64,000 nucleotides of DNA, taken from a virus. This document shows, piece by piece, positions 34,490-44,363 of the stretch (positions are counted from its first letter, which is position 1; each line of letters begins with the position of its first letter). Below the pieces are notes generated by a model. It ran no database searches and was not told the origin of the DNA. It worked only from the letters and a program-made list of their open reading frames with translations. The DNA is taken from positions 248,001 through 312,000 of the IMG/VR virus record IMGVR_UViG_3300044701_000569; one strand, given 5' to 3'. The translations under genes were made by a program, and so were the position numbers.

Positions 34490-34566
34490 TGGTGCTACCT
34501 CCTGGGATCGAACCAGGCACACCCAGATTTTCAGTCTGGTGCTCTACCAACTGAGCTAAGGTAGCA
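34490..34566 (-). tRNA. tRNA-Phe(GAA)
   Basis: Cloverleaf with acceptor TGCTACC/GGTAGCA, anticodon loop CTGAAAA, T-loop GGTTCGATCC and an encoded CCA end. Last tRNA of the array in transcription order. Confidence 0.95.
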
Positions 34567-34572
34567 AATTTT

Positions 34573-34649
34573 TGGGGTGAACGACGAGAGTTGAACTCGC
34601 TCTACCTGTTTCACAGACAAGTGTGCTAAACCGTTACACTACGAACACC
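34573..34649 (-). tRNA. tRNA-His(GTG)
   Basis: Anticodon loop CTGTGAA, extra 5' G (G-1), T-loop AGTTCAACT, encoded CCA. The acceptor stem (GTGTTCG/CGTTCAC) has two adjacent T-T mismatches, which is unusual. Confidence 0.9.
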
Positions 34650-34655
34650 ATTGTT

Positions 34656-34732
34656 TGGCCGGCTCTGAGGGACTCGAACCCCCAACCTCCAGTTTCGAAG
34701 ACTGGCACTCTAATCCATTGAGTTAAGAGCCG
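34656..34732 (-). tRNA. tRNA-Arg(TCG)
   Basis: Acceptor CGGCTCT/AGAGCCG, anticodon loop CTTCGAA, T-arm GGGGGTTCGAGTCCCTC, encoded CCA. Confidence 0.95.
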
Positions 34733-34736
34733 TTAT

Positions 34737-34812
34737 TGGTGGACCGGGAGGGGATCGAACCCACGACCGTCTGATTAAGAGTCAGCTACTCTACCTACTG
34801 AGTTACCAGTCC
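34737..34812 (-). tRNA. tRNA-Lys(CTT)
   Basis: Anticodon loop CTCTTAA, acceptor GGACTGG/CCGGTCC with one G-T pair, encoded ACCA. First of two lysine tRNAs. Confidence 0.93.
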
Positions 34813-34829
34813 ATTTAAACCTATTAGAA

Positions 34830-34886
34830 GAACACACTATATGCCTATTAACACGCATCTTAAGCGGGACTTACAATAGTGTGTTC
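34830..34886 (-). other. Long hairpin between tRNAs
   Basis: An 11-bp perfect stem (GAACACACTAT/ATAGTGTGTTC) encloses a 35-base loop between tRNA-Lys(CTT) and tRNA-Met. There is no T-run, so it is not a terminator; it may be a processing signal or a small RNA element. Confidence 0.5.
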
Positions 34887-34898
34887 ATTTAATAAGTT

Positions 34899-34973
34899 TG
34901 GTAGCAGCAATAGGAGTCGAACCTATACAACACGGCGTATGAGACCGTTGCACTACCATTATGCTATGCTGCT
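34899..34973 (-). tRNA. tRNA with CAT anticodon (elongator Met or Ile2)
   Basis: Acceptor AGCAGCA/TGCTGCT, anticodon loop CTCATAC, A73 and encoded CCA. It lacks initiator features. It could be elongator tRNA-Met or the tRNA-Ile whose C34 is changed to lysidine by TilS; this phage also encodes a TilS at 48.8 kb. Sequence alone does not decide. Confidence 0.9.
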
Positions 34974-34979
34974 AAAAAT

Positions 34980-35053
34980 TGGCTGGGCTGCATGGACTCG
35001 AACCACGATACCTGGAATCAAAATCCAGTGTCCTACCATTAGACGACAACCCA
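34980..35053 (-). tRNA. tRNA-Gln(TTG)
   Basis: Acceptor TGGGTTG/CAGCCCA, anticodon loop TTTTGAT, T-loop GGTTCGAGTCC, encoded CCA. Confidence 0.95.
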
Positions 35054-35060
35054 ATAAATT

Positions 35061-35152
35061 TGGCGACCCGTTAGCCCCACCGCTTTGGAGACGGTTCTGG
35101 ACCCCTGCATTCCACAGGACTTAGTGCTTCTAGATGTAGTCCGCCACGGGCC
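35061..35152 (-). tRNA. Atypical Trp(CCA)-like tRNA without a T arm
   Basis: Ends pair as a 7-bp acceptor (GGCCCGT/ACGGGTC) with an encoded GCCA, and ACCGT-CTCCAAA-GCGGT forms a good anticodon arm with CCA anticodon. But about 50 bases separate the 5' acceptor strand from that arm and only 7 bases follow it, so no T arm fits. A D-arm-like GGAC...GTCC is present. A normal tRNA-Trp lies at 35648-35722. This is either a noncanonical tRNA-like RNA or a rearranged relic. Confidence 0.45.
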
Positions 35153-35176
35153 AACGGCGGCCGTCTACATTAGTAT

Positions 35177-35410
35177 TCAATCCTTGAGTCCACCCCAGGA
35201 TGGAATCTTACCACTTGCTCTTTCCAAACTGTTGATAGTGTTAGGATCATCCATACAAATCCTATCAACGTATTGGTAGCGAGTTCTATCAACGTCATGC
35301 TTAAGACTTGCATAACATGCACCGTAATTCTTATATGCAACTACACCTGTAGATACAGTTCCATCGAAACTGATCAGTGTCATTACCATGATAACGCCAG
35401 ATAGCGTCAT
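35177..35410 (-). CDS. Small protein between tRNAs (77 aa)
   Basis: The ATG at 35410 has AAGGA nine bases upstream; a longer frame would start inside tRNA-Lys. The N terminus is hydrophobic (MTLSGVIMVMTLISFDGTVS), possibly a short membrane anchor or signal, then a charged body (ASLKHDVDRTRYQYVDRICM). It has two cysteines near residues 32 and 53. No family recognised. Confidence 0.6.
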   Translation of the reverse strand: MTLSGVIMVMTLISFDGTVSTGVVAYKNYGACYASLKHDVDRTRYQYVDRICMDDPNTINSLERASGKIPSWGGLKD

Positions 35411-35435
35411 TGCGTTGTTTCCTTCTTCAAAAAGT

Positions 35436-35511
35436 TGGTGGACGCTGTGGGGCTCGAACCCACGACTCACAGATTAAAAGTCTGTTACTCTACCAACTGA
35501 GTTAAGCGTCC
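35436..35511 (-). tRNA. tRNA-Lys(TTT)
   Basis: Acceptor GGACGCT/AGCGTCC, anticodon loop CTTTTAA, encoded ACCA. Second lysine tRNA. Confidence 0.95.
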
Positions 35512-35526
35512 TTAAATCTTATTCGT

Positions 35527-35555
35527 ACAATACAACGGTTCTAGCCCGTTGTCAA
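35527..35555 (-). promoter_or_regulatory. Sigma-70-type early promoter inside the tRNA array
   Basis: TTGACA (35555-35550), 17-base spacer, TATTGT (35532-35527), upstream of tRNA-Lys(TTT). Confidence 0.65.
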
Positions 35556-35564
35556 CAGTTATTT

Positions 35565-35641
35565 TGGAGTAGCGGATGGGACTCGAACCCACATAAAACA
35601 GTTTTGCAGACTGTAGCCTAACCATTCGGCGACACCGCTAC
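35565..35641 (-). tRNA. tRNA-Cys(GCA)
   Basis: Acceptor GTAGCGG/CCGCTAC, anticodon loop CTGCAAA, encoded TCCA. Confidence 0.95.
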
Positions 35642-35647
35642 ATAAAA

Positions 35648-35722
35648 TGGCATACCCTGAGAGATTTGAACTCCCACCAGCGGTTTTGGAGACCGTTATG
35701 CTGCCGTTAACACCAAGGGTAT
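35648..35722 (-). tRNA. tRNA-Trp(CCA)
   Basis: Acceptor ATACCCT/AGGGTAT, anticodon loop CTCCAAA, normal T arm, encoded GCCA. Confidence 0.93.
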
Positions 35723-35727
35723 ATGTT

Positions 35728-35802
35728 TGGTTGCCGCAGGTGGTTTCGAACCACCGACCCCAGCGTTATCAGCACTGTGCTCTACCCCTGAGCTATGCGG
35801 CA
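35728..35802 (-). tRNA. tRNA-Ile(GAT)
   Basis: Acceptor TGCCGCA/TGCGGCA, anticodon loop CTGATAA, T-arm GGTGGTTCGAAACCACC, encoded CCA. Confidence 0.95.
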
Positions 35803-35808
35803 ATATAT

Positions 35809-35897
35809 TGGTGGGTGTTGATGGTAACGCTCCACGTGGCAACTTCCCTCCGAAACAATGCCGACGGATTTACAGTCCGCTGGAGGGGGCAACACCC
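35809..35897 (-). tRNA. Atypical Tyr(GTA)-like tRNA without a normal D arm
   Basis: The ends pair as GGGTGTT/AACACCC with encoded ACCA, and GCGGA-CTGTAAA-TCCGT is a textbook Tyr anticodon arm. Only 10 bases lie between acceptor and anticodon arm, so no D arm fits. The 3' half is long, has CCCTCC/GGAGGG enclosing the anticodon arm, and the expected T-loop reads AGCGTTA instead of TTCRANY. It is the only tyrosine tRNA candidate in the window. Confidence 0.5.
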
Positions 35898-36125
35898 AAT
35901 AAATTGTAACACTCTCCGCTATGCTTTTTGACACCGTCATGGGGTGAAAGAAGAGTGTGTAGTAAAGCACTCTACATGGATGAACCCACTTGTCTCCTTA
36001 CGGATAGAGAATGCTTTACTACGCTAGGATTTTACTCTCTACGTTGTCGCCGTAGATTTGATCCCCTAGTCCGCCCGTTTATTTTTTAAAGTGCTGATAG
36101 GACCTCGTTTCCATTTGCACTGTAT
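35898..36125 (-). ncRNA. Structured noncoding RNA candidate A
   Basis: No reading frame covers this stretch between a terminator and the Tyr-like tRNA. Read on the minus strand it folds well: an 11-bp stem GTAGTAAAGCA/TGCTTTACTAC, inside it CTCTA/TAGAG and a TCC-GTAA-GGA GNRA hairpin, plus CTACG-GCGACAA-CGTAG and ACACTCT/AGAGTGT helices. The class is unknown; it does not show tmRNA or RNase P signatures that I can recognise. Confidence 0.5.
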
Positions 36126-36129
36126 AAAA

Positions 36130-36166
36130 GAAAACCCCCGGAGTATTTTACATTCCGGGGGTTTAT
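36130..36166 (-). terminator. Rho-independent terminator
   Basis: CCCCCGGAATG...CTCCGGGGG hairpin followed by TTTTCTTTT on the minus strand, closing the 22-codon ORF cassette. Confidence 0.85.
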
Positions 36167-36194
36167 GAAATTTCTTTGGTTCTAAAAATTTAGA

Positions 36195-36263
36195 TCAAGA
36201 AATACCCCCGCCCGGTTGATACCAGCGAATGCAAAACATGTGTTTAAAAATCTGTTTAGTCAT
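36195..36263 (-). CDS. Micro-ORF (22 aa) in its own transcription unit
   Basis: ATG at 36263 encodes MTKQIFKHMFCIRWYQPGGG then IS and a TGA stop. It lies between a strong promoter (36305-36333) and a strong terminator (36130-36166), so a transcript of about 165 bases is predicted. The ribosome site is weak (AAAGA). The transcript may be a small RNA with or without a translated peptide. The layout matches the unit at 44551-44737. Confidence 0.45.
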   Translation of the reverse strand: MTKQIFKHMFCIRWYQPGGGIS

Positions 36264-36304
36264 TTTAGGTCTTTCTTTGTCTGTTAGTTTGTTACTATAT
36301 ACAT

Positions 36305-36333
36305 AGTATAGTACAGTTATTTATCTCTGTCAA
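36305..36333 (-). promoter_or_regulatory. Sigma-70-type promoter with an embedded late box
   Basis: TTGACA (36333-36328), 17-base spacer, TATACT (36310-36305). The spacer contains the late-type GATAAATA (36325-36318). The same combination occurs at 44709-44737. Confidence 0.8.
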
Positions 36334-36381
36334 GTCTTTTCTTTTTAAAAGTGGCAAAAAAGTGTTGTATTTTTGCCACAC

Positions 36382-36801
36382 CTAGCGAGCTTGTTTCGCT
36401 AGTTCTTTATAACCACTCCAGCTAGGATGAACGCCATCCTTTTGTAGTGCTGGAATAGTTAATATAACATCACCGTATTTTTTTGCAACCTCTTTTATAA
36501 TCGTTTGAATCTCTTGAATACTTATGTTACTCTTTGGATGATTACCTGCGGGGAGGATCCAAAACACTCGTTTTCCTTGTACCTTCTCTCGCATCTTGAG
36601 CAGTTCTGCTCTAGTATTAACACCCTTGTGATCATTTGAACCTAGACTTATAATGACAACGCCTGCTGTCAAATCCTTGTTCAAATAGTCGCGATTCCAC
36701 TGCCAACTATTCCAGCCGCCTTTTGCATAGGCAACACATTCAGTACGGAAACTATGGGTTCCAACTGCAATACTGTCTCCTAAGATCAAACACTCTAACA
36801 T
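36382..36801 (-). CDS. SGNH/GDSL-type hydrolase
   Basis: The 139-residue protein has the family blocks: MLECLILGDSIAVGTHSF (block I, Ser in GDS), GVVIISLGSNDHKG (block III, Asn) and KDGVHPSWSGYKELA (block V, Asp and His). SGNH enzymes hydrolyse esters of lipids or surface sugars. At 139 residues it is compact and without signal peptide. It overlaps nothing and is preceded by a 31-residue membrane peptide gene. Possible roles include modification or deacetylation of host surface polymers. Confidence 0.85.
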   Translation of the reverse strand: MLECLILGDSIAVGTHSFRTECVAYAKGGWNSWQWNRDYLNKDLTAGVVIISLGSNDHKGVNTRAELLKMREKVQGKRVFWILPAGNHPKSNISIQEIQTIIKEVAKKYGDVILTIPALQKDGVHPSWSGYKELAKQAR

Positions 36802-36802
36802 A

Positions 36803-36898
36803 CTACTCTCCTAGTAAGAAAAGAAGAAGGAGTACACCCGTGAGCACAGGCATCCAGAATAAAAACAGTACAGATTTAACCCATTCTGAAAATGTCAT
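36803..36898 (-). CDS. Single-pass membrane micropeptide (31 aa)
   Basis: The ATG at 36898 follows AGGAGAG. The peptide MTFSEWVKSVLFLFWMPVLT then GVLLLLFLLGE is essentially one transmembrane helix. Its TAG is one base from the SGNH hydrolase ATG, with another AGGAG in between, so the two are co-translated. Confidence 0.65.
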   Translation of the reverse strand: MTFSEWVKSVLFLFWMPVLTGVLLLLFLLGE

Positions 36899-36916
36899 AC
36901 TCTCTCTCCTAAATTT

Positions 36917-36991
36917 TGGTGGGCGGTGAGAGTTTCGAACTCCCGACCCTCTCGGTGTAAACGAGACGCTCTACCACTGAGCTAACCGCCC
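36917..36991 (-). tRNA. tRNA-Val(TAC)
   Basis: Acceptor GGGCGGT/ACCGCCC, anticodon loop TTTACAC, T-arm GGGAGTTCGAAACTCTC, encoded CCA. It starts its own unit behind the promoter at 37010-37037. Confidence 0.95.
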
Positions 36992-37009
36992 ACTTAAACT
37001 AATACCTTT

Positions 37010-37037
37010 ATTATATAATAGAAATTAATAATGTCAA
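37010..37037 (-). promoter_or_regulatory. Sigma-70-type early promoter
   Basis: TTGACA (37037-37032), 16-base spacer, TATAAT (37015-37010). The TGA stop of the aminotransferase-like gene (37034-37036) is inside the -35 box. Confidence 0.9.
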
Positions 37038-37654
37038 GGCCTAATTATAATTTTTCTACAATCTGGATAATTGTAAAATTTTTTATCTTGTATTGTAAAA
37101 GTTTTAGTATTTAATTTATTAAGACCTTCTACAGCTTCTTCTGGTCTCATATAGTAGTGATATCCAACATTAAATTCTTTTTGATCAACCCATGGCGAAA
37201 ACGCAAAAACGTCTCTACCATCGTATCTCATTTTACTTGCTGCCTGTGCAAAATCTTTGTTATCAGTTAATATCATACCGCCTCGACCTATTTCAAGAGG
37301 TTTAGTTCTACCAAAACTTAAACACTGTATAGAGTCTGAACAATACATGTTTTCTTCTAAGCATCTAGCCATATCCCAGACATTAGTTCCTAAAATTTGA
37401 TAACCACCATTCCAGTCTATGTCATCTAATTCATATTCAATGTTTAACTTATGCAGTGTCATCAATACACTTAAATAGGTTCTACAAGGTATTTTTACAG
37501 TATTCTTTGGAATATTAAGCCTAAAAGATATTTCTAGAGCATGTGTACAGCAATCTGTTGCAATAGCATAGGGCGCACCAGTATATTTAGATATTTGATT
37601 TTCAAACTCTTTTATAGCCTCAAAAGGATTATCAAATTGATCTATTGTGTACAT
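37034..37654 (-). CDS. Short DegT/DnrJ-like PLP aminotransferase homologue
   Basis: The ATG at 37654 overlaps the previous stop (TGATG). The 206-residue protein shows the DegT fold pattern: FENQISKYTGAPYAIATDCC (substrate-side helix), ALEISFRL, IPCRTYLSVLMTL, then SFGRTKPLEIGRGGMILTD, which holds the likely PLP lysine (family: SFxxTKxLxxGEGG). DegT enzymes are 360-400 residues, so the C-terminal domain is missing. It might be a minimal sugar aminotransferase or a non-catalytic derivative. Confidence 0.7.
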   Translation of the reverse strand: MYTIDQFDNPFEAIKEFENQISKYTGAPYAIATDCCTHALEISFRLNIPKNTVKIPCRTYLSVLMTLHKLNIEYELDDIDWNGGYQILGTNVWDMARCLEENMYCSDSIQCLSFGRTKPLEIGRGGMILTDNKDFAQAASKMRYDGRDVFAFSPWVDQKEFNVGYHYYMRPEEAVEGLNKLNTKTFTIQDKKFYNYPDCRKIIIRP

Positions 37655-38145
37655 CACTGATGCCCAGTTATAATTAATACATGTCTATTTTCTGTGCTAA
37701 TATTAACTGCACTATGCTTTTCAGATCCCTTCCAACAAATATAAGAGCCTGCTGTCCAATTATTGTATACAATTGATCCAACTGTATTATATTGACCACT
37801 TTTTCCGTTTTCAAGAAAAAGAACAATTCTTTCTATGTTTTCTAGTTTTACAGAAAATTTAGATTTATAAAGAGTATATAAATCTAAATGTTCTGGAAGA
37901 TAGTGTCCAGGACGCAGTCTATGAAAACTTAAACCTATGTTATGTAAGTGTGAAAAATTCTTCAGAACATCATCAGTCCAGCTAGGCATTGGACTTGGAT
38001 AATCATATGTATCAATAGTTAGACTCTCCTTATCGTATCCTAAATCTAACCATTGATTTAATTGTGACAAATCTTTAAATTGTTCTTTTTTATAATTTAA
38101 AGATTTATAAGAGTTGTCCCAAATTACTGGAATATGTTTAAACAC
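37654..38145 (-). CDS. Cupin/2OG-oxygenase-like protein
   Basis: This frame starts at a GTG (38145) and gives 163 residues. LRPGHYLPEHLDLYTLYKSK provides an HxD-type metal motif, IERIVLFLENGKSG and AGSYICWKGSEKHSAVNIST the distal His, and ENRHVLIITG the basic residue, the layout of aspartyl/asparaginyl hydroxylase-like 2OG enzymes. It is coupled to the DegT-like gene by an overlapping stop/start. The substrate is unknown. Confidence 0.65.
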   Translation of the reverse strand: MFKHIPVIWDNSYKSLNYKKEQFKDLSQLNQWLDLGYDKESLTIDTYDYPSPMPSWTDDVLKNFSHLHNIGLSFHRLRPGHYLPEHLDLYTLYKSKFSVKLENIERIVLFLENGKSGQYNTVGSIVYNNWTAGSYICWKGSEKHSAVNISTENRHVLIITGHQ

Positions 38146-38146
38146 T

Positions 38147-38852
38147 TAATTTTTTCTACCACCAAATTACAGTGTTGGTGTGTATTCTCCTTAAGTGTAC
38201 TTATCAATATAAACAGAAGCGAAACTGCAAGTAATGAACTGGACAATGTGCAATCGGGGCTTCAGGTATCCACCCCACAAGCAATCTACAAATAACAATC
38301 TGCAGAAGACTTGCATATTTCCAGGTTCAAAGTGCAAATGTTCGTTTAGACTGGAGCATACAAGCACGGAGACATTTTCAAGTGTCTTGAGCGTTAGTTG
38401 TTGTTTAAACCTCGGAAGACCGAAGTCATCCGTAACAACACGGTTGTCCATCCTAATCTCAGCTTCACTTCCGGGTAGTTTACGCTATTAACGCATAACT
38501 ACCAAAACTCACTTTAAGAAATAGCACAGTTTACTATTCTTCACTGCCTGTTGTAGACAACCTATGGTTGTCGTTTCCTAGGATCACAGGGCTCCGATCC
38601 AAACAAGGTTCTCCGTGTACATTGGAGCACGAGCTGTGCTATTACTTAAAGTGTCCAGCTACTAGTCCCCACTAGCCCTGAACTGAGTTGTTACCCTGTC
38701 CGCTCCATTTCCATTTAGACGGTGGAAGTCCGCCTTTGTGATTTCTCAAGTCGCTTCTGAAATGAAGCCTTGCGGTTGATCCAATGCACCGTAGCGTTTA
38801 TGGTTTGCTAATTACCCACTTTAGATAACGTCAAAGTGTAAACCGGGGTTTC
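38147..38852 (-). ncRNA. Large structured noncoding RNA candidate B (~700 nt)
   Basis: No convincing gene covers 706 bases. Read on the minus strand it is full of helices: a near-perfect 20-bp stem (CACTTTAAG.AATAGCACAG with CTGTGCTATT.CTTAAAGTG, arms about 38504-38523 and 38631-38650), GGTAGTT/AACTACC, a GAC-TTCG-GTC tetraloop and GCTTC/GAAGC. Size, phage context and closeness to tRNAs recall the ROOL and GOLLD classes, but I cannot verify a family match. It lies downstream of the 188-residue gene and may share its transcript. Confidence 0.55.
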
Positions 38853-39419
38853 TTAGAGAATGTCTGCTCTTACAAGTAAGTTAGCAGTTTCATCGTCCAG
38901 TGTCAACTCTGTTTGAACATTAAGCTCAAGCAGTGTATCCTGTAGCTTCTGCTTACGACGTTTGAGATCGGCAACAGTTCGTTTGAATTCTTCAACTTCA
39001 GCATCAGTGAAGATGCCTGTGTCAATTGTATCGTAACGACCGTACAAGCGGCTTTCTTCCTTAGAATTGCGCACCTTCTCTAACTTGCCTTCAATAACCT
39101 TGTCACTGAGGCGAGCAGTCTTAGTAGACAATCCGTTATAATGCTGAATCTGCTTCTCTAGCATCGCTACGTCTGCCAACATGTCGTTAATGCCCTGCTC
39201 TGCATTAGCACGAGCCACACTACGACGAATTTCAAACAACGCACCAATTAACTTTTCGCGAGTTGAATTATGAGCCGTGAAGCGGCCACGCACAGATTCA
39301 ATCTGTGCCTTGTAGTCTTCATACTCGTTCAACTGCACTGATGTTGGGAAATCAAGACCCTTGATCATTTCGTTGATTGCTAATTGTACAGCGTTTGCCT
39401 TGCGTAGTGTGATTTGCAT
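38853..39419 (-). CDS. Coiled-coil protein of unknown function (188 aa)
   Basis: The product is almost entirely helical with long heptad stretches (ANAEQGINDMLADVAMLEKQ, EVEEFKRTVADLKRRKQKLQ) and no hydrophobic membrane segment. Early promoter and purine-rich AAGG leader precede it. Its stop is followed immediately by structured RNA candidate B. An RNA- or DNA-associated scaffolding role could be imagined, but there is no recognised family. Confidence 0.6.
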   Translation of the reverse strand: MQITLRKANAVQLAINEMIKGLDFPTSVQLNEYEDYKAQIESVRGRFTAHNSTREKLIGALFEIRRSVARANAEQGINDMLADVAMLEKQIQHYNGLSTKTARLSDKVIEGKLEKVRNSKEESRLYGRYDTIDTGIFTDAEVEEFKRTVADLKRRKQKLQDTLLELNVQTELTLDDETANLLVRADIL

Positions 39420-39445
39420 TTTGTTTTTTCCTTGTTTATGTGTTT

Positions 39446-39473
39446 ATTATACAGCGATTAGTTGTTTTGTCAA
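39446..39473 (-). promoter_or_regulatory. Sigma-70-type early promoter
   Basis: TTGACA (39473-39468), 16-base spacer, TATAAT (39451-39446), upstream of the coiled-coil gene and RNA candidate B. Confidence 0.9.
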
Positions 39474-39481
39474 CTACTTTG

Positions 39482-40210
39482 TTATTTCTCTACGAATGCT
39501 CGTTCAAGTACATAGTCTCCCGGTTCACGTAATGAACCTTCTAACATGTTCTTGCTTTTGCACCACTTAGCAACTTGTTGATTAAACTCTAAATTACCAC
39601 ACAACATAATTTTATCAGTATTGGAGTTAATTGTTAAGGTGTTATCTAGTTGATCTGTGATTCTTTTACCACCTTCGCCGGTCACGATAGGTATGTAATT
39701 AAGAATTGGCTTAACCAGTTCTTCTAAATCAGTGCCTTCAAAACTATTTGACAACTCATTGTAGTATGCTAAATCATTACGATTTCTTACACTATGTACA
39801 ATGTTAATCTTTGTCCATGTTTCAAGTGTTTCAACGTCACGTATCAAACTCATAAAGGGTGCAAGACCTGTACCTGTTGCTAGCAACCATAGATCGCCAC
39901 CCTTCTTCAATGCATCGTTACGCAACGTGCCTGTGGGCTTTTCCGTCAAAATGATTTCATCGCCAATTTTAATGTTTTGTAGTTTGCTAGTCAACTCACC
40001 TTCTGTTAGCTTGATGCTTAGAAATTCTAATTCATCTGCCCAAGGAGGACTGACTACGCTGTATGCTCTCAATACGTTCTTACCATCAATGTTAAGACCA
40101 CACATAGCAAACTCACCTGCGTTAAACTTGAAAGTTTGGCTGCGTGTAGTCTTAAAACTGAATGTCCTGTTGCTCCAGTGATGGACCCATGTAACTGTTT
40201 CTGTAATCAT
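39482..40210 (-). CDS. fpr: Ferredoxin-NADP+ reductase (bacterial Fpr type)
   Basis: The 242-residue flavoprotein has the FAD-binding RAYS motif (48-51, RAYSVVSPPWADELEFLSIK), the NADP-binding ATGTGLAPFMSLIRD (111-125) and the typical C terminus YVLERAFVEK of proteobacterial reductases. It moves electrons between NADPH and ferredoxin or flavodoxin. Length is that of a complete enzyme. This is an auxiliary metabolic gene, lying directly after tRNA-Ser. It could feed reducing power to the oxygenases or Fe-S proteins that this phage encodes, which is an inference. Confidence 0.93.
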   Translation of the reverse strand: MITETVTWVHHWSNRTFSFKTTRSQTFKFNAGEFAMCGLNIDGKNVLRAYSVVSPPWADELEFLSIKLTEGELTSKLQNIKIGDEIILTEKPTGTLRNDALKKGGDLWLLATGTGLAPFMSLIRDVETLETWTKINIVHSVRNRNDLAYYNELSNSFEGTDLEELVKPILNYIPIVTGEGGKRITDQLDNTLTINSNTDKIMLCGNLEFNQQVAKWCKSKNMLEGSLREPGDYVLERAFVEK

Positions 40211-40226
40211 TGTCCCTGCTTATTAT

Positions 40227-40318
40227 TGGCGGAAGCGGTGAGATTCGAACTCACGGTAGGGTCACCCCTACGTCTGATTTCAAGTCAGGTGCATTAAACC
40301 GGGCTCTGCCACACTTCC
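40227..40318 (-). tRNA. tRNA-Ser(TGA)
   Basis: Class II tRNA with long variable arm (GTAGGGGTGACCCTAC), anticodon loop CTTGAAA, acceptor GGAAGTG/CGCTTCC, encoded GCCA. Confidence 0.95.
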
Positions 40319-40323
40319 TTTTG

Positions 40324-40494
40324 TTACTTAAAGTCTTCAGGGAGATTTTCCCTAAAAGACAAATCAATTGAATTAAGGTTCTTTAGTGCTCTATATGCAT
40401 ACATGGCTGCTAGGCCTGTAACTCCAACAACAGCAAAAAGGGCTACCTTAGGAGCCCATTGCTTTGTCTTTGATAGAATCTTTTCTCTATTCAC
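40324..40494 (-). CDS. Small single-pass membrane protein (56 aa, GTG start)
   Basis: A 56-codon frame fills the gap between tRNA-fMet and tRNA-Ser: VNREKILSKTKQWAPKVALF then AVVGVTGLAAMYAYRALKN, one transmembrane helix at about 17-36 with a positive N-terminal side, then an acidic tail LPEDFK. AGAAGAG lies upstream of the GTG. In-frame codons continue upstream but only to the end of the tRNA. No family recognised. Confidence 0.6.
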   Translation of the reverse strand: MNREKILSKTKQWAPKVALFAVVGVTGLAAMYAYRALKNLNSIDLSFRENLPEDFK

Positions 40495-40518
40495 TAATTT
40501 TGCTTTCTCTTCTAAAAT

Positions 40519-40593
40519 TGGTTGCGGAGGACGGAATCGAACCGCCGATCTTTAGGTTATGAGCCTAATGAGTTACCTCTTCTCTACCCCGCG
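40519..40593 (-). tRNA. Initiator tRNA-fMet(CAT)
   Basis: Acceptor CGCGGGG against CTCCGCA gives the initiator hallmark C1-A72 mismatch. Anticodon arm TTAGG-CTCATAA-CCTAA has two G-C pairs next to the loop (E. coli has three). T-arm GGCGGTTCGATTCCGTC and encoded ACCA. It is a phage-borne initiator tRNA. Confidence 0.93.
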
Positions 40594-40599
40594 TCAAAA

Positions 40600-41733
40600 T
40601 GTTATACAGCTGACAACCTATTTGTGCCACCACATTATTGGCACCATTCACCCTTTTCCGGATTAGCATGCGGGATTCGGTACGTTATTACAGTTACTTG
40701 CCCAACGCTTCTATGTTTGTGCTAGGGTATTGCGCCCCTCGTTGTTTACATTTGCTTTGGCTGGCCAGCTACTTGCAAACGTGACTTTCACTTACTAACA
40801 ATTGATTGTCATGTGTATAACATCTTACGTTTTTACTAAGCCTGAGATTACAGCATAGTGAGGAAGTCTTTGGTCATTACCGCAAGCCTTGCGAGCCGCG
40901 TTCTACCTTTATCCACCGGCGTCCTTACGGATCATCCAGTAACTTCCAGTGCTGCCTTTTTTAGAGTGTGGCGTTTCACTCGTCGTATGTTGCTATTCGT
41001 CCATCTATCCTACGCCAGCCTTGCGAGCTGTTCAACGGCGCTAACCGCTTACGTTCTCTATCCGAACAATCACTTCTGCCTTGCGAGCTTCTGTGAACCT
41101 AATTCACTTACGTGTCAGGTATTAAGCACCTTTCACAACATACCGGGACAGTCTTTCGCTTTTTGTAATATCAAAGAAGGATTTGAACCTTCGCCGATTC
41201 CTTATCAATGGAATTGCTCTACCACTGAGCTATTTGCGAACCTACTTTGATGTGCTGTCCCAGTTGCTCCATATCTTGTTAGATACAGAATACAACACAC
41301 CAACTGTCTTTTGTCTTGCGGACTACTCAACGGTCTTTCAAGTTTCCGGTTACCCTTCAACTCTCAGACTAGTGACTTGCCTTTCCCTGCTAGGTTAGAC
41401 TAGTCACTTACCTATTAGCCGTTTGCAATCGTTAGTTTGGCTGCAAGTTGCGTGAGCGCCAACCCACTTACACCTCACCGAATGGCTCTGGTGCTATGCT
41501 TTCGCACAACCTGCCTAACTTACTGCATACCGCCTTTCTACGGACGGGGAGCGGTTCGACATTGCTGCCACCTGCCTCCTAGCTTAGGCTTGCATGAATG
41601 AACTGTATTGCTACAGCGCAGGTATGTAGGAATTCCTGCTTTGGGTGAGTTGCCTCACTTATTCTAAGGACGTCATGCCGCCCAATTAACTATTTTAAAG
41701 AACGTTTGTAACAACACTTGTTTGCTACATCAT
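40600..41733 (-). ncRNA. GOLLD-like giant structured RNA with internal tRNA
   Basis: A perfect promoter (41740-41767) fires into about 1.13 kb without genes, ending at tRNA-fMet. The RNA carries three copies of a GCTCGCAAGGC hairpin (GNRA loop GCAA with a bulged T), further GNRA loops (TCC-GTAA-GGA), AGTGACT/AGTCACT, and a CTGGGACAG/CTGTCCCGG stem that encloses a tRNA-Ile-like sequence. GOLLD RNAs (about 800-1000 nt) occur in phages beside tRNAs and can contain a tRNA, so this is the best class guess; I could not run a covariance search. Confidence 0.65.
41166..41251 (-). tRNA. tRNA-Ile(GAT)-like domain inside the giant RNA
   Basis: TAGCTCAGTGGTAGAGC D arm, anticodon region with GAT, and GAAGGTTCAAATCCTTC T arm are canonical. 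The anticodon loop has an extra base, the acceptor is imperfect next to TAGCTC but pairs as ATCAAAG/CTTTGAT if a 12-base insert is looped out, and there is no CCA. A normal tRNA-Ile(GAT) exists at 35728. It looks like a tRNA co-opted as a structural domain. Confidence 0.6.
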
Positions 41734-41739
41734 ATCCTT

Positions 41740-41767
41740 ATTATATACGCTTTTACTTCTTTGTCAA
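41740..41767 (-). promoter_or_regulatory. Sigma-70-type early promoter for the giant RNA
   Basis: TTGACA (41767-41762), 16-base spacer, TATAAT (41745-41740). Transcription would start near 41733. Confidence 0.9.
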
Positions 41768-41797
41768 CATCTTTTTTAGATATTTTAGAAATTTTTT

Positions 41798-42151
41798 TCA
41801 GCGTCTATGTAACCGCTCAACTTGGACGGTGCAAACACCGCCGCACCCAAGTTTCCTTGCCACACCTTCTGAGAGATCAATATCGCGACCATTAATAAAT
41901 GGTCCTCTATCGTTCACTCTTACCTCAACACTCTTACCTTTATGAGAAACTCTCAAAATAGTATTAAAAGGCAGTGTCCTGTGAGCAACCGTCATACCTT
42001 GCGGATCAAACGATTCTCCGTTTGCAGTTCTACTTCCATGTTTATACCAACTGGCTACCATTGTGGTATTGTTAGGTGGCGGATTCGCATATCCAATTGT
42101 CGTACATCCGCTTAACAGAACTCCAAACATTAGTAGAAATGGTTTAGCCAT
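41798..42151 (-). CDS. rlpA: RlpA-like double-psi beta-barrel lipoprotein
   Basis: The ATG at 42151 gives 117 residues: MAKPFLLMFGVLLSGCTTIG is a lipoprotein signal with lipobox LLSGC. VASWYKHGSRTANGESFDPQ, then MTVAHRTLPFNTILRVSH and VRVNDRGPFINGRDIDLS, is the RlpA double-psi barrel. RlpA proteins are outer-membrane lytic transglycosylases acting on peptidoglycan without stem peptides. The C-terminal SPOR domain of host RlpA is absent. A role in lysis or envelope remodelling is likely. A longer frame would start inside tRNA-Gly. Confidence 0.92.
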   Translation of the reverse strand: MAKPFLLMFGVLLSGCTTIGYANPPPNNTTMVASWYKHGSRTANGESFDPQGMTVAHRTLPFNTILRVSHKGKSVEVRVNDRGPFINGRDIDLSEGVARKLGCGGVCTVQVERLHRR

Positions 42152-42165
42152 TTTTTTCCTCCGTT

Positions 42166-42241
42166 TGGAGCGGGCGAAGAGGTTCGAACTCTTGACATTT
42201 ACCTTGGCAAGGTAATGCTCTACCAACTGAGCTACGCCCGC
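42166..42241 (-). tRNA. tRNA-Gly(GCC)
   Basis: Acceptor GCGGGCG/CGCCCGC, anticodon loop TTGCCAA, encoded TCCA. A strong hairpin (CTGCTGC/GCAGCAG) lies just upstream at 42244-42265. Confidence 0.95.
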
Positions 42242-42295
42242 ATTCTGCTGCTTTTTAAGGCAGCAGTTTTTATTTAGTCCAAAAAATAGACTAAA

Positions 42296-42448
42296 TTAGC
42301 TTGGAACTATCTTTGGAATATACGGAACTGCTCTAGGACCACCGTACAGTTGCTCAAAAAGTTTCTTAGCCTCTTGCGGAGTATCCGCATAGATTCTTTT
42401 CTTTTCTTCGCCCTGTGGCGTTCTAACAGTAGTTTCGTACATTGGCAT
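42296..42448 (-). CDS. Small protein (50 aa)
   Basis: The ATG at 42448 has AAGGAG upstream; the longer frame would begin inside tRNA-Pro. MPMYETTVRTPQGEEKKRIY then ADTPQEAKKLFEQLYG suggests a beta strand pair and a helix, like small phage proteins that act on r-proteins or DNA. No family recognised. Confidence 0.6.
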   Translation of the reverse strand: MPMYETTVRTPQGEEKKRIYADTPQEAKKLFEQLYGGPRAVPYIPKIVPS

Positions 42449-42464
42449 GATATGCTCCTTGTAA

Positions 42465-42542
<78 letters not shown>

Positions 42543-42550
42543 AATTCTTA

Positions 42551-42913
42551 CTAGCCTGCGTTTCTTGTAATAAAGTTTACACGAACCTTAGCAGGCTTAA
42601 AATACTTTTCAATTGTATCTTGTGCAATACCAATATCAACTGGCTTGCACGAGAAAATGTCAAAATAAGCATCACCGTTTAAGTCGACCAAGTGTCCACT
42701 GATGTTGCTGGTTTCAATCATTTGACAAAAACTAATACCTGCCTTGTCTGGTGCATGGGCTGCAAAATGTTCAATCATTGGCTCACCAAATGCAACCATA
42801 TCAATAGCAGGAACTAGTTCCTTAATAAAGTTATAAACGTTATCTCGGCTAGTTACTAATTCCTTATCACAAGCCGCGCAATCGAACATTGCATGATAAC
42901 CCCAGTACGCCAT
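42551..42913 (-). CDS. speD: S-adenosylmethionine decarboxylase-like protein 1
   Basis: The 120-residue protein matches phage AdoMet decarboxylase-type proteins: MAYWGYHAMFDCAACDKE, IEHFAAHAPDKAGISFCQMI, then IETSNISGHLVDLNGDAYFD and FDIFSCKPVD. The serine in ETSNIS would be the self-cleaving pyruvoyl precursor, and Cys in FSCKP the catalytic acid. The usual SerHis after the cleavage site reads SerAsn here. AdoMetDC supplies aminopropyl groups for spermidine. A paralogue lies directly upstream. Confidence 0.8.
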   Translation of the reverse strand: MAYWGYHAMFDCAACDKELVTSRDNVYNFIKELVPAIDMVAFGEPMIEHFAAHAPDKAGISFCQMIETSNISGHLVDLNGDAYFDIFSCKPVDIGIAQDTIEKYFKPAKVRVNFITRNAG

Positions 42914-42940
42914 GTTTTCCTCCGTTGGGTTAGGGTACTA

Positions 42941-43315
42941 TTATCCTGGTAGCGGTATTTCTACCAAGTTGTGTTCTCGATCCAAGTATTTCATTTCTAC
43001 GCTGACTGGATCAAACTCAGCGATAGCCTCAACTACATCATATGGATCTAAAGGCCCACATGTGTAAACATCTAACTGCATCATTGCTGGGCTCTGTTCA
43101 TCCCAGATATGCATTGCGATGTGACTTGTCTCTATAATAGTGACAGCGGTTAACCCTCGGTTACCTACCACATCGCAATACACAGCATAAGGACCCATTA
43201 GGGTCTTCATACCAATTTTTTCTATCAAGTTTGGCATCCAAACTTTACTAACTGTCTCCGCACAAATTAGCGGGTTGTTCACTTCTGCGCGAACTATAAG
43301 ATGTTTGTGAAACAC
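42941..43315 (-). CDS. S-adenosylmethionine decarboxylase-like protein 2
   Basis: This 124-residue frame starts at a GTG (43315). The core TAVTIIETSHIAMHIWDEQS followed by LDVYTCGPLDPYDVVEAI matches the AdoMetDC consensus ES-H-x-x-x-H-x-W-x-E...D-x-F-T-C-G better than its neighbour, with Ser-His at the expected cleavage site and Cys in YTCG. Two tandem SpeD-like genes could encode a heteromeric enzyme or one active and one regulatory subunit. Confidence 0.75.
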   Translation of the reverse strand: MFHKHLIVRAEVNNPLICAETVSKVWMPNLIEKIGMKTLMGPYAVYCDVVGNRGLTAVTIIETSHIAMHIWDEQSPAMMQLDVYTCGPLDPYDVVEAIAEFDPVSVEMKYLDREHNLVEIPLPG

Positions 43316-43346
43316 TATATCTCATGCCTCTCCTAGTCTAAAGCTA

Positions 43347-43430
43347 TGGTGCCCCAGGGGAGACTCGAACTCCCACGCCTTGCGACATTGGCTTCTAAGA
43401 CCAACGTGTCTACCATTCCACCACCAGGGC
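43347..43430 (-). tRNA. tRNA-Leu(TAG)
   Basis: Class II tRNA with long variable arm, anticodon loop CTTAGAA, acceptor GCCCTGG/CTGGGGC with wobble, encoded ACCA. Confidence 0.93.
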
Positions 43431-43438
43431 AAATATTG

Positions 43439-43513
43439 TGGTGCCCATTGAGAGATTCGAACTCCCGACCTATCGCTTACAAGGCGATTGCACTACCACT
43501 GTGCTAAATGGGC
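43439..43513 (-). tRNA. tRNA-Thr(TGT)
   Basis: Acceptor GCCCATT/AATGGGC, anticodon loop CTTGTAA, encoded ACCA. Confidence 0.95.
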
Positions 43514-43557
43514 ATTACTTTTTAATTATCACGCAACACTAAACTAAACTATAAAAC

Positions 43558-43631
43558 TGGAGCGGGGTAGGAGAATCGAACTCCTCGCTTTAGCTTGGAA
43601 GGCTAAGGTATTACCACTATACGAACCCCGC
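43558..43631 (-). tRNA. tRNA-Gly(TCC)
   Basis: Acceptor GCGGGGT/ACCCCGC, anticodon loop CTTCCAA, encoded TCCA. Confidence 0.95.
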
Positions 43632-43640
43632 ATAAAAACT

Positions 43641-43715
43641 TGGAGCACCGTAGGGGAGTCGAACCCCTCTTACCAGGATGAAAACCTAGTGTCCTAACCG
43701 ATAGACGAACGGTGC
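43641..43715 (-). tRNA. tRNA-Glu(TTC)
   Basis: Acceptor GCACCGT/ACGGTGC, anticodon loop TTTTCAT, encoded TCCA. Confidence 0.95.
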
Positions 43716-43943
43716 ATATATTCTATAGCTACGCTTTCCCAAGTCGCCCTATAGTGAGTTGTCATCCCTGTCACTGTGTTTATTGTTTCCTGAGCCGTTA
43801 CAGTTCGGCACAGCGGTTCGGACTCCCTATATTAGTTTACACTGCCATGGCAGTGTAATGGGCACTCTTCTTAACGGTTTACCGCCCCCGGCTCTGTTAC
43901 GCTGAAGCAAGCGACACTGATCACGTTCAGTGCTGACGGGATT
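43716..43943 (-). ncRNA. Structured noncoding RNA candidate D
   Basis: This 228-base gap between tRNA-Ala and tRNA-Glu has no gene but many helices on the minus strand: a perfect 9-bp hairpin with palindrome TTACACTGCCATGGCAGTGTAA-like core (about 43839-43860), GAGCCG/CGGCTC, CACTGA/TCAGTG, CGG-TAAA-CCG and AGTGA/TCACT. Its class is unknown. Confidence 0.5.
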
Positions 43944-44019
43944 TGGTGGAGGATAACGGGATCGAACCGTTGACCTATAGCTTGCAAAGCTACCGCTCTC
44001 CCAGCTGAGCTAATCCCCC
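43944..44019 (-). tRNA. tRNA-Ala(TGC)
   Basis: Acceptor GGGGGAT/ATCCTCC with wobble, anticodon loop TTTGCAA, encoded ACCA. Confidence 0.95.
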
Positions 44020-44030
44020 ATAAATCTAAC

Positions 44031-44099
44031 GTAGCCGGTGGAGTCGAACCACTCTAGTCAGCAAAGACAATCTGTCTAAGCCCGTACCACTACTGCTAC
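44031..44099 (-). tRNA. Degenerate tRNA-like sequence
   Basis: A canonical T arm (GTGG-TTCGACT-CCAC) and a 6-of-7 acceptor (GTAGCAG/CGGCTAC) are present, but no regular anticodon arm can be formed and there is no CCA. It sits between tRNA-Asp and tRNA-Ala and is probably a decayed or noncanonical tRNA. Confidence 0.4.
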
Positions 44100-44104
44100 T
44101 ATAC

Positions 44105-44181
44105 TGGCGCACCGTAGGGGACTTGAACCCCTGACCCCCGCCGTGACAGGGCGGTGCGCTAACCAACTGCGCTAACGGTGC
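44105..44181 (-). tRNA. tRNA-Asp(GTC)
   Basis: Acceptor GCACCGT/ACGGTGC, anticodon loop CTGTCAC, encoded GCCA. Confidence 0.95.
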
Positions 44182-44190
44182 AAAATTCTT

Positions 44191-44282
44191 TGGCGGAGAT
44201 AGTTGGATTCGAACCAACGGTAGAGTTTAACCCCTACGACGGTTTAGCAAACCGCTGCCTTAAGCCTCTCAGCCATATCTCC
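44191..44282 (-). tRNA. tRNA-Ser(GCT)
   Basis: Class II tRNA with variable arm, anticodon loop TTGCTAA, acceptor GGAGATA/TATCTCC, encoded GCCA. Confidence 0.95.
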
Positions 44283-44287
44283 AAATT

Positions 44288-44363
44288 TGGCTCCACGGGC
44301 TGGGATCGAACCAGCGACAGGGTGATTAACAGTCACCTGCTCTACCAACTGAGCTACCGCGGA
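44288..44363 (-). tRNA. tRNA-Asn(GTT)
   Basis: Acceptor TCCGCGG/CCGTGGA, anticodon loop CTGTTAA, encoded GCCA. First tRNA of the array behind two tandem promoters. Confidence 0.95.

Follow-up and report, generated by a model that had tools for sequence, protein, structure and literature searches.

Transfer RNA (tRNA) mimics that form part of a larger viral RNA are familiar from the tRNA-like structures of plant viruses, which are 3′-terminal and aminoacylated. The GOLLD RNA env-38 (RF02032) forms a closed 14-mer with its linker inside, as determined by cryo-electron microscopy (PMC12286853). Both GOLLD itself and tRNAs in the GOLLD linker are already known; linker tRNAs have been discussed as possible phage tRNA cargo, and the function of the cage is still debated. 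In a Mycobacterium GOLLD, no expression of the embedded tRNA-like gene as a tRNA was detected (PMC6582537). Certain phage tRNAs evade bacterial defense, notably T5 tRNA-Lys which acts against the AriB nuclease of PARIS (PMC12409363, PMC10264068). AriB cuts Lys(UUU), Thr(UGU) and Asn(GUU) tRNAs, and some viral tRNAs may be competitive inhibitors according to the authors of that work (PMC12409363). The GOLLD RNA described here is encoded in a 64,000-nt window comprising bases 248001-312000 of the 357,559-base virus record IMGVR_UViG_3300044701_000569. Its linker contains a tRNA-like cassette that appears to have lost the end of its acceptor stem and to belong to a family whose fold is maintained while the anticodon changes rapidly.

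Membership of the RNA in the GOLLD family is secure. The Rfam RF02032 model matched window positions 41303-40839 on the minus strand over its full length (1-416 of 416) with 198.2 bits compared to a gathering score of 150, and the RNA is present as a single copy in the whole record. Rfam ROOL models produced no match to the region even at E values up to 10. Among 111 aligned relatives, conservation climbed near 41700 and stopped abruptly near 40835. Structured RNA supported by covariation spanned ~41683 to 40839, including the 430-nt 5′ domain (29 relatives). In RNAalifold predictions with 29 diverse relatives, 88 of 108 pairs in the 5′ domain (mean paired 0.96) and 57 of 84 pairs in the 3′ domain (mean paired 0.98) were doubly changed, the counts being derived from one alignment without slid or shuffled control alignments. 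The RNA resembles env-38 in its whole-model 3′ domain match, in the length of its 5′ domain (~430 nt versus 420 nt), in the variable linker that connects the two separate domains, and in its location in a phage genome next to tRNA genes. It differs in that the 5′ domain lies outside the Rfam model, and in that a covarying tRNA mimic occupies the linker, where env-38 has a disordered loop; the 14-mer has been established only for env-38. Isolates with a GOLLD above the cut-off include roseophages DSS3_MAL1, MD18 and DSS3P8, the Sinorhizobium jumbo phage Phosso, and the Mesorhizobium phage Cp1R7A-A1.

The RNA is preceded on the minus strand by TTGACA (41767-41762) and TATAAT (41745-41740) with a 16-nt spacer, which is the sole 12/12 promoter match in the region. 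Matches of at least 11/12 were detected at the corresponding upstream region in 40% of 97 related loci compared to 3% of control stretches; by this comparison the promoter is conserved among relatives. The sequence GCTCGCAAGGC, which forms a hairpin with a GCAA tetraloop, occurs exactly three times in the window, each time within the GOLLD RNA, with 0.01 copies expected by chance. A GOLLD-like RNA with this promoter at the 5′ end and these three hairpins had been proposed in a first-pass annotation, which singled out the Rfam GOLLD and ROOL models and helix covariation in homologous phage regions as decisive, and the results above uphold it. The same annotation regarded a gene-free interval of more than 1.1 kb as one RNA. 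The longest open reading frame on the RNA's own strand is indeed at most 51 amino acids, but the last ~240 nt lie outside the conserved RNA because conservation ends near 40835. The phage context and tRNA neighborhood fit a GOLLD as was argued, and the sole overreach was a 3′ boundary set too far. The annotation also noted that GOLLD RNAs can contain a tRNA, which fits the locus, but the tRNA-like element at 41239-41168 escaped it.

The distribution and architecture of the element were investigated in IMG/VR scans that recovered 143 anchored linkers, 127 of which (94 distinct) parse as tRNA-like. One scan required a T-loop motif and thereby favors tRNA-like linkers; when the motif was not required, 97 of 112 anchored loci matching the pattern still parsed as tRNA-like. 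Ten linkers beyond the 127 retained the anticodon arm and lost the D-loop GG and the T-loop motif. In these elbow-less linkers (L216, L223, L229, L231, L238, L263, L268, L269, L277, and L292) the loop is CUGUUAA or near it. Cassettes were positioned by the D, anticodon and T arms alone so that acceptor pairing was measured independently. Acceptor pairs 4-7 form in 94-99% of cassettes (z 10-13), and the stems of the D, anticodon and T arms also covary, with z values of 7-13 except for two nearly invariant T-stem pairs. In contrast, the frequencies of acceptor pairs 1, 2 and 3 are 52, 37, and 52%, respectively, in the 94 unique cassettes, with z values of 1.1-1.8 compared to shuffled partners, whereas all seven acceptor pairs form and covary in neighboring genuine tRNAs. 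The latter set was recomputed after subtraction of 22 suspected embedded cassettes, by which a few genuine tRNAs also were lost. Pairs 1-3 are all present in 11/94 cassettes compared to 1213/1440 genuine tRNAs, and CCA is encoded in 2/94 versus 1274/1440. An anticodon loop of 8 nt instead of 7 nt, which ARAGORN reports as a four-base anticodon in the window cassette, was found in 5/94 cassettes compared to 4/1440 genuine tRNAs. A long variable arm was present in none of the 94 cassettes, including those with Ser or Leu anticodons. In the absence of CCA and of acceptor pairs 1-3, the mimic is expected to stay covalently attached and to be unable to serve as an adaptor: these comparisons give good support to the conclusion that no working tRNA can be released from the cassette. 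The GOLLD mimic also differs from the plant virus structures in being internal and in lacking an acceptor end.

By sequence distance the cassettes are a group of their own: the nearest neighbor of 87/94 cassettes is another cassette and not a genuine tRNA, and no cassette differs from a genuine tRNA at fewer than 9 of 54 sites. Recent capture from neighboring tRNA genes was considered and rejected as the closest genuine tRNA was in the same stretch for 0/58 cassettes with enough neighbors. Within the clade of the window, the cassette's 5′ strand may pair with a motif in the GOLLD frame instead of with the acceptor 3′ strand, forming a collar helix. As a general alternative-register acceptor stem this helix has weak support, its mean score being 3.38 overall compared to 3.07 ± 0.05 for shuffled partners. 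A cassette in L032 (6491-6565) possesses a CUA (amber) anticodon and is designated tRNA-Pyl by ARAGORN; another CUA tRNA is located at 2835-2913 on the same contig.

Comparison of related loci indicates that the fold of the mimic is kept while the anticodon or the entire cassette is swapped or mutated far faster than the surrounding RNA. When cassettes were clustered on all sites except the anticodon loop, more than one anticodon was observed in 4/11 multi-member clusters compared to 1/130 clusters of genuine tRNAs (Fisher 1e-4). The scaffold in the window, GGTAGAGCAATTCC-loop-GGAATCGGC, bears six different loops: AUUGAUAA, AUGCUAA, AUUUCAGA, CUUCUAA, AUUGAAC, and AUUUUGA. A pattern scan found no second scaffold. 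The L191 and L213 contigs, which derive from different metagenomes and are 98-100% identical where aligned, have a linker difference that is almost confined to the loop. Entire cassettes also differ: in L243 and L246 the GOLLD is ~100% identical on either side of cassettes that are 57% identical, in genomes that otherwise are ~83% identical, and the L217/L288, L145/L184, and L167/L211 pairs have the same 3′ domain with different cassettes. These swapped pairs emerged from a 352-nt frame comparison in which GOLLD frames with 97-100% identity can carry differing mimics, and near-identical cassettes also are present in frames that are merely 60-78% identical. A full-frame comparison at ≥97% identity revealed little cassette change, with apparent same-phage pairs dominating that set.

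The architecture of the anticodon loop is retained amid this variation, with U33 in 94% and a purine at position 37 in 96% of cassettes as in real anticodon loops. The GUU, CUU, UCU, and UUU anticodons (Lys, Asn, and Arg(UCU)) account for 63/89 cassettes compared to 149/1432 genuine tRNAs. U36 is found in 68% of cassettes versus 38% of genuine tRNAs at the cluster level (p = 0.002), cluster-level tests being cited because pair counts lack phylogenetic independence. The possibility that cassettes supply anticodons that are absent from the tRNA set of the phage was assessed separately, and this effect was not seen (30/58 compared to a permutation mean of 26.6).

A tentative explanation, which is favored here with less than even confidence, is that the RNA is a giant-phage GOLLD cage with an acceptor-less, fast-changing tRNA mimic as bait. 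By homology to the solved GOLLD, the RNA would assemble into a hollow homo-oligomeric cage. The cage and the interior position of the linker are taken from the literature on env-38 and should apply here, so that many copies of the mimic, each consisting of a 4-bp acceptor stump that carries the D, anticodon and T arms, would reside in the interior of each cage. The fold is preserved as the sequence, and above all the anticodon, is exchanged or mutated quickly. The mimic then would bait factors of the host or of rival phages that recognize tRNA anticodon arms, most likely tRNA-cleaving defense nucleases which we infer it binds or absorbs. Taken together, acceptor loss, the conserved anticodon-loop architecture, the excess of anticodons for Lys, Asn and Arg, and the speed of anticodon turnover fit a target or competitor of anticodon nucleases. 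The ten elbow-less linkers, in which the anticodon arm persists, and the presence of a T4 Rnl1-like RNA ligase gene in the window also speak for this explanation. That the internal, rapidly exchanged mimics provide RNA-only counter-defense against anticodon-recognizing bacterial nucleases by means of a variable anticodon arm is a possibility that these sequence patterns suggest, and is put forward cautiously. Defense-evading phage tRNAs are comparable in their Lys and Asn anticodons and in anticodon-arm change, but are working, cleavage-resistant tRNAs that replace those of the host; the GOLLD cassette without an acceptor end could only bind or absorb a nuclease. The Mycobacterium case consists of one cluster with a pseudo tRNA gene, whereas the cassettes here comprise a large family whose fold is under selection, whose acceptor end is absent, and whose anticodons turn over. 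A linker mimic that combines selection and acceptor loss with hypervariability and exchange was not found in the literature searched, outside which Weinberg 2009 and Morgado 2020 fall, and priority is uncertain. If the mimic is non-functional as a tRNA but selected and hypervariable, delivery of cargo tRNAs is unlikely for this clade, and anticodon-arm recognition, probably in defense or counter-defense, becomes a testable function of GOLLD. The cassettes also would constitute a natural library of tRNA mimics.

Several observations weigh against the bait explanation. In this clade, a small number of linkers contain hairpins and no tRNA mimic, and a tRNA-blind 3′-end pattern identified a parsed mimic in 10/108 GOLLDs, a minority feature of GOLLDs generally. 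Thus, bait cannot be a universal function of GOLLD. The bait would also be concealed within a closed cage if the cage does not open. Most sequences are metagenomic, and chimeric assembly could have produced some of the frame and cassette pairs. RNA ligases related to the T4 Rnl1-like ligase encoded in the window (31502-30591, minus strand; phrog_562 172 bits, PF09511 46.6 bits) are present in some, but not all, of the GOLLD phages searched, and the family is widespread in phages generally and its presence alone proves nothing.

The best surviving alternative, although doubtful, is that the cassette acts merely as a stable spacer, in which case its tRNA fold would be tolerated at a site where sequence is of no consequence and would drift neutrally. 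Hairpin and A-rich linkers in relatives signify that the mimic is dispensable to the GOLLD frame, and the loop and stem sequences vary while the fold stays. Neutral drift, however, would neither preserve U33 and purine 37 nor enrich U36, would not concentrate differences in the loop when the molecules are identical elsewhere, as in L191 and L213, and is at odds with the compensation that strongly maintains the stems. It is unlikely that the mimic instead serves as a docking site that brings a constant host factor to the inside or the surface of the cage, be it EF-Tu, the ribosome, a tRNA-modifying enzyme or an aminoacyl-tRNA synthetase. U35-U36 is common to Lys and Asn anticodons, and GOLLD is reported to pull down ribosomes in work cited in PMC12286853, but docking of a constant factor leaves both the fast turnover of anticodons and whole cassettes and the loss of the acceptor end unexplained.

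Quite improbable is a working phage tRNA gene nested in GOLLD, from which RNase P would excise a tRNA for use in translation while the GOLLD parts still assemble, with anticodons differing by capture. The window cassette does score 49.6 bits with the Rfam tRNA model, U33 and purine 37 are retained, CCA is present in the L047 and L093 cassettes, and phage-encoded tRNAs in the linker are mentioned in the cryo-electron microscopy study (PMC12286853). Nevertheless, acceptor pairs 1-3 do not covary and CCA is almost absent overall, A34-type and 8-nt anticodon loops occur, Ser and Leu anticodons lack the long variable arm, and the cassettes are a separate sequence group. Furthermore, the anticodon of the cassette is already present on a genuine tRNA in half of the tRNA-rich contigs, and the mycobacterial pseudo-tRNA is not detectably expressed alone (PMC6582537). 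That the cassette swaps are chimeras formed at identical GOLLD stretches during metagenome assembly is very improbable since, although several swapped pairs have 100% identical 3′ domains and are divergent on both sides, pair members come from different metagenomes, the L191/L213 change is restricted to the loop in near-identical contigs, and hypervariability on one scaffold is independent of frame linkage.

Table 1. Positions of the GOLLD RNA, its parts and flanking elements in the window.
Feature	Position	Strand	Basis and remarks
Sigma-70-type promoter TTGACA-16-TATAAT (12/12)	41740-41767	-	Sequence match; conserved upstream in relatives; predicted
GOLLD RNA, ~0.9 kb	40835-41733	-	5′ end inferred from promoter, 3′ end from conservation loss
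5′ domain, structured, conserved in relatives, outside Rfam model	41304-41733	-	RNAalifold, 108 pairs, 88 with double changes
Linker closed by GOLLD stem (41262-41254 with 41153-41144)	41144-41262	-	RNAalifold helix paired 0.98; fold z -3.06
Proposed collar helix UUCGC (41240-41236) with GCGAA (41159-41155)	41155-41240	-	RNAalifold, folding; weak general support
tRNA-like cassette, non-canonical, acceptor stem incomplete	41168-41239	-	ARAGORN; RF00005 49.6 bits
8-nt anticodon loop AUUGAUAA of cassette, hypervariable site	41202-41209	-	ARAGORN, cassette parsing
Conserved 3′ domain (RF02032, full-length match, 198.2 bits)	40839-41303	-	Rfam covariance model
GCTCGCAAGGC hairpin copy 1 (GCAA loop)	41078-41088	-	Motif count
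GCTCGCAAGGC hairpin copy 2	41018-41028	-	Motif count
GCTCGCAAGGC hairpin copy 3	40886-40896	-	Motif count
3′ spacer from GOLLD to tRNA-Met, not conserved, mildly structured (fold z -2.18)	40594-40834	-	Alignment, folding
tRNA-Met(CAT)	40519-40593	-	ARAGORN; shortly downstream of GOLLD
Intrinsic-terminator-like site	40440-40457	-	Could terminate a GOLLD-tRNA-Met transcript

The 240-nt spacer that follows the GOLLD RNA gave no blastn match to any phage record. A transfer-messenger RNA (tmRNA) was considered for this position because the spacer has a tag-like reading frame and roseophage relatives carry a tmRNA there: a phage-encoded, permuted alpha-type tmRNA is located directly 3′ of GOLLD in DSS3_MAL1, MD18, and DSS3P8 (L138 3596-4004, L139 3750-4158, and L142 3642-4063). 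The candidate was rejected in the window as no tmRNA model matched at E values up to 10 and the blastn search was empty. The tRNA at 40593-40519 that the first-pass annotation termed tRNA-fMet is a tRNA-Met(CAT) with the initiator-like C1-A72 mismatch, but its anticodon stem does not have three G-C pairs, which makes the initiator identity possible rather than shown. Processing by RNase P at this tRNA could define the 3′ end of the GOLLD RNA. As in the window, tRNA-Met(CAT) is found 120-310 nt 3′ of GOLLD in L017, L041, L047, L054, and L093.

The locus forms part of a large tRNA cluster (34490-44363, minus strand) in which small genes are interspersed; the GOLLD mimic is one of the 24 ARAGORN calls there. 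Rnl1-type ligases repair cleaved tRNA-Lys in T4, and the Rnl1-like ligase of the window is a possible tRNA repair enzyme. The relatives of RIIA and of the RNA ligase in the phage collection are all <60% identical. Within the tRNA cluster, two adjacent genes on the minus strand (42551-42913 and 42941-43315) possess an S-adenosylmethionine decarboxylase domain (PF02675).
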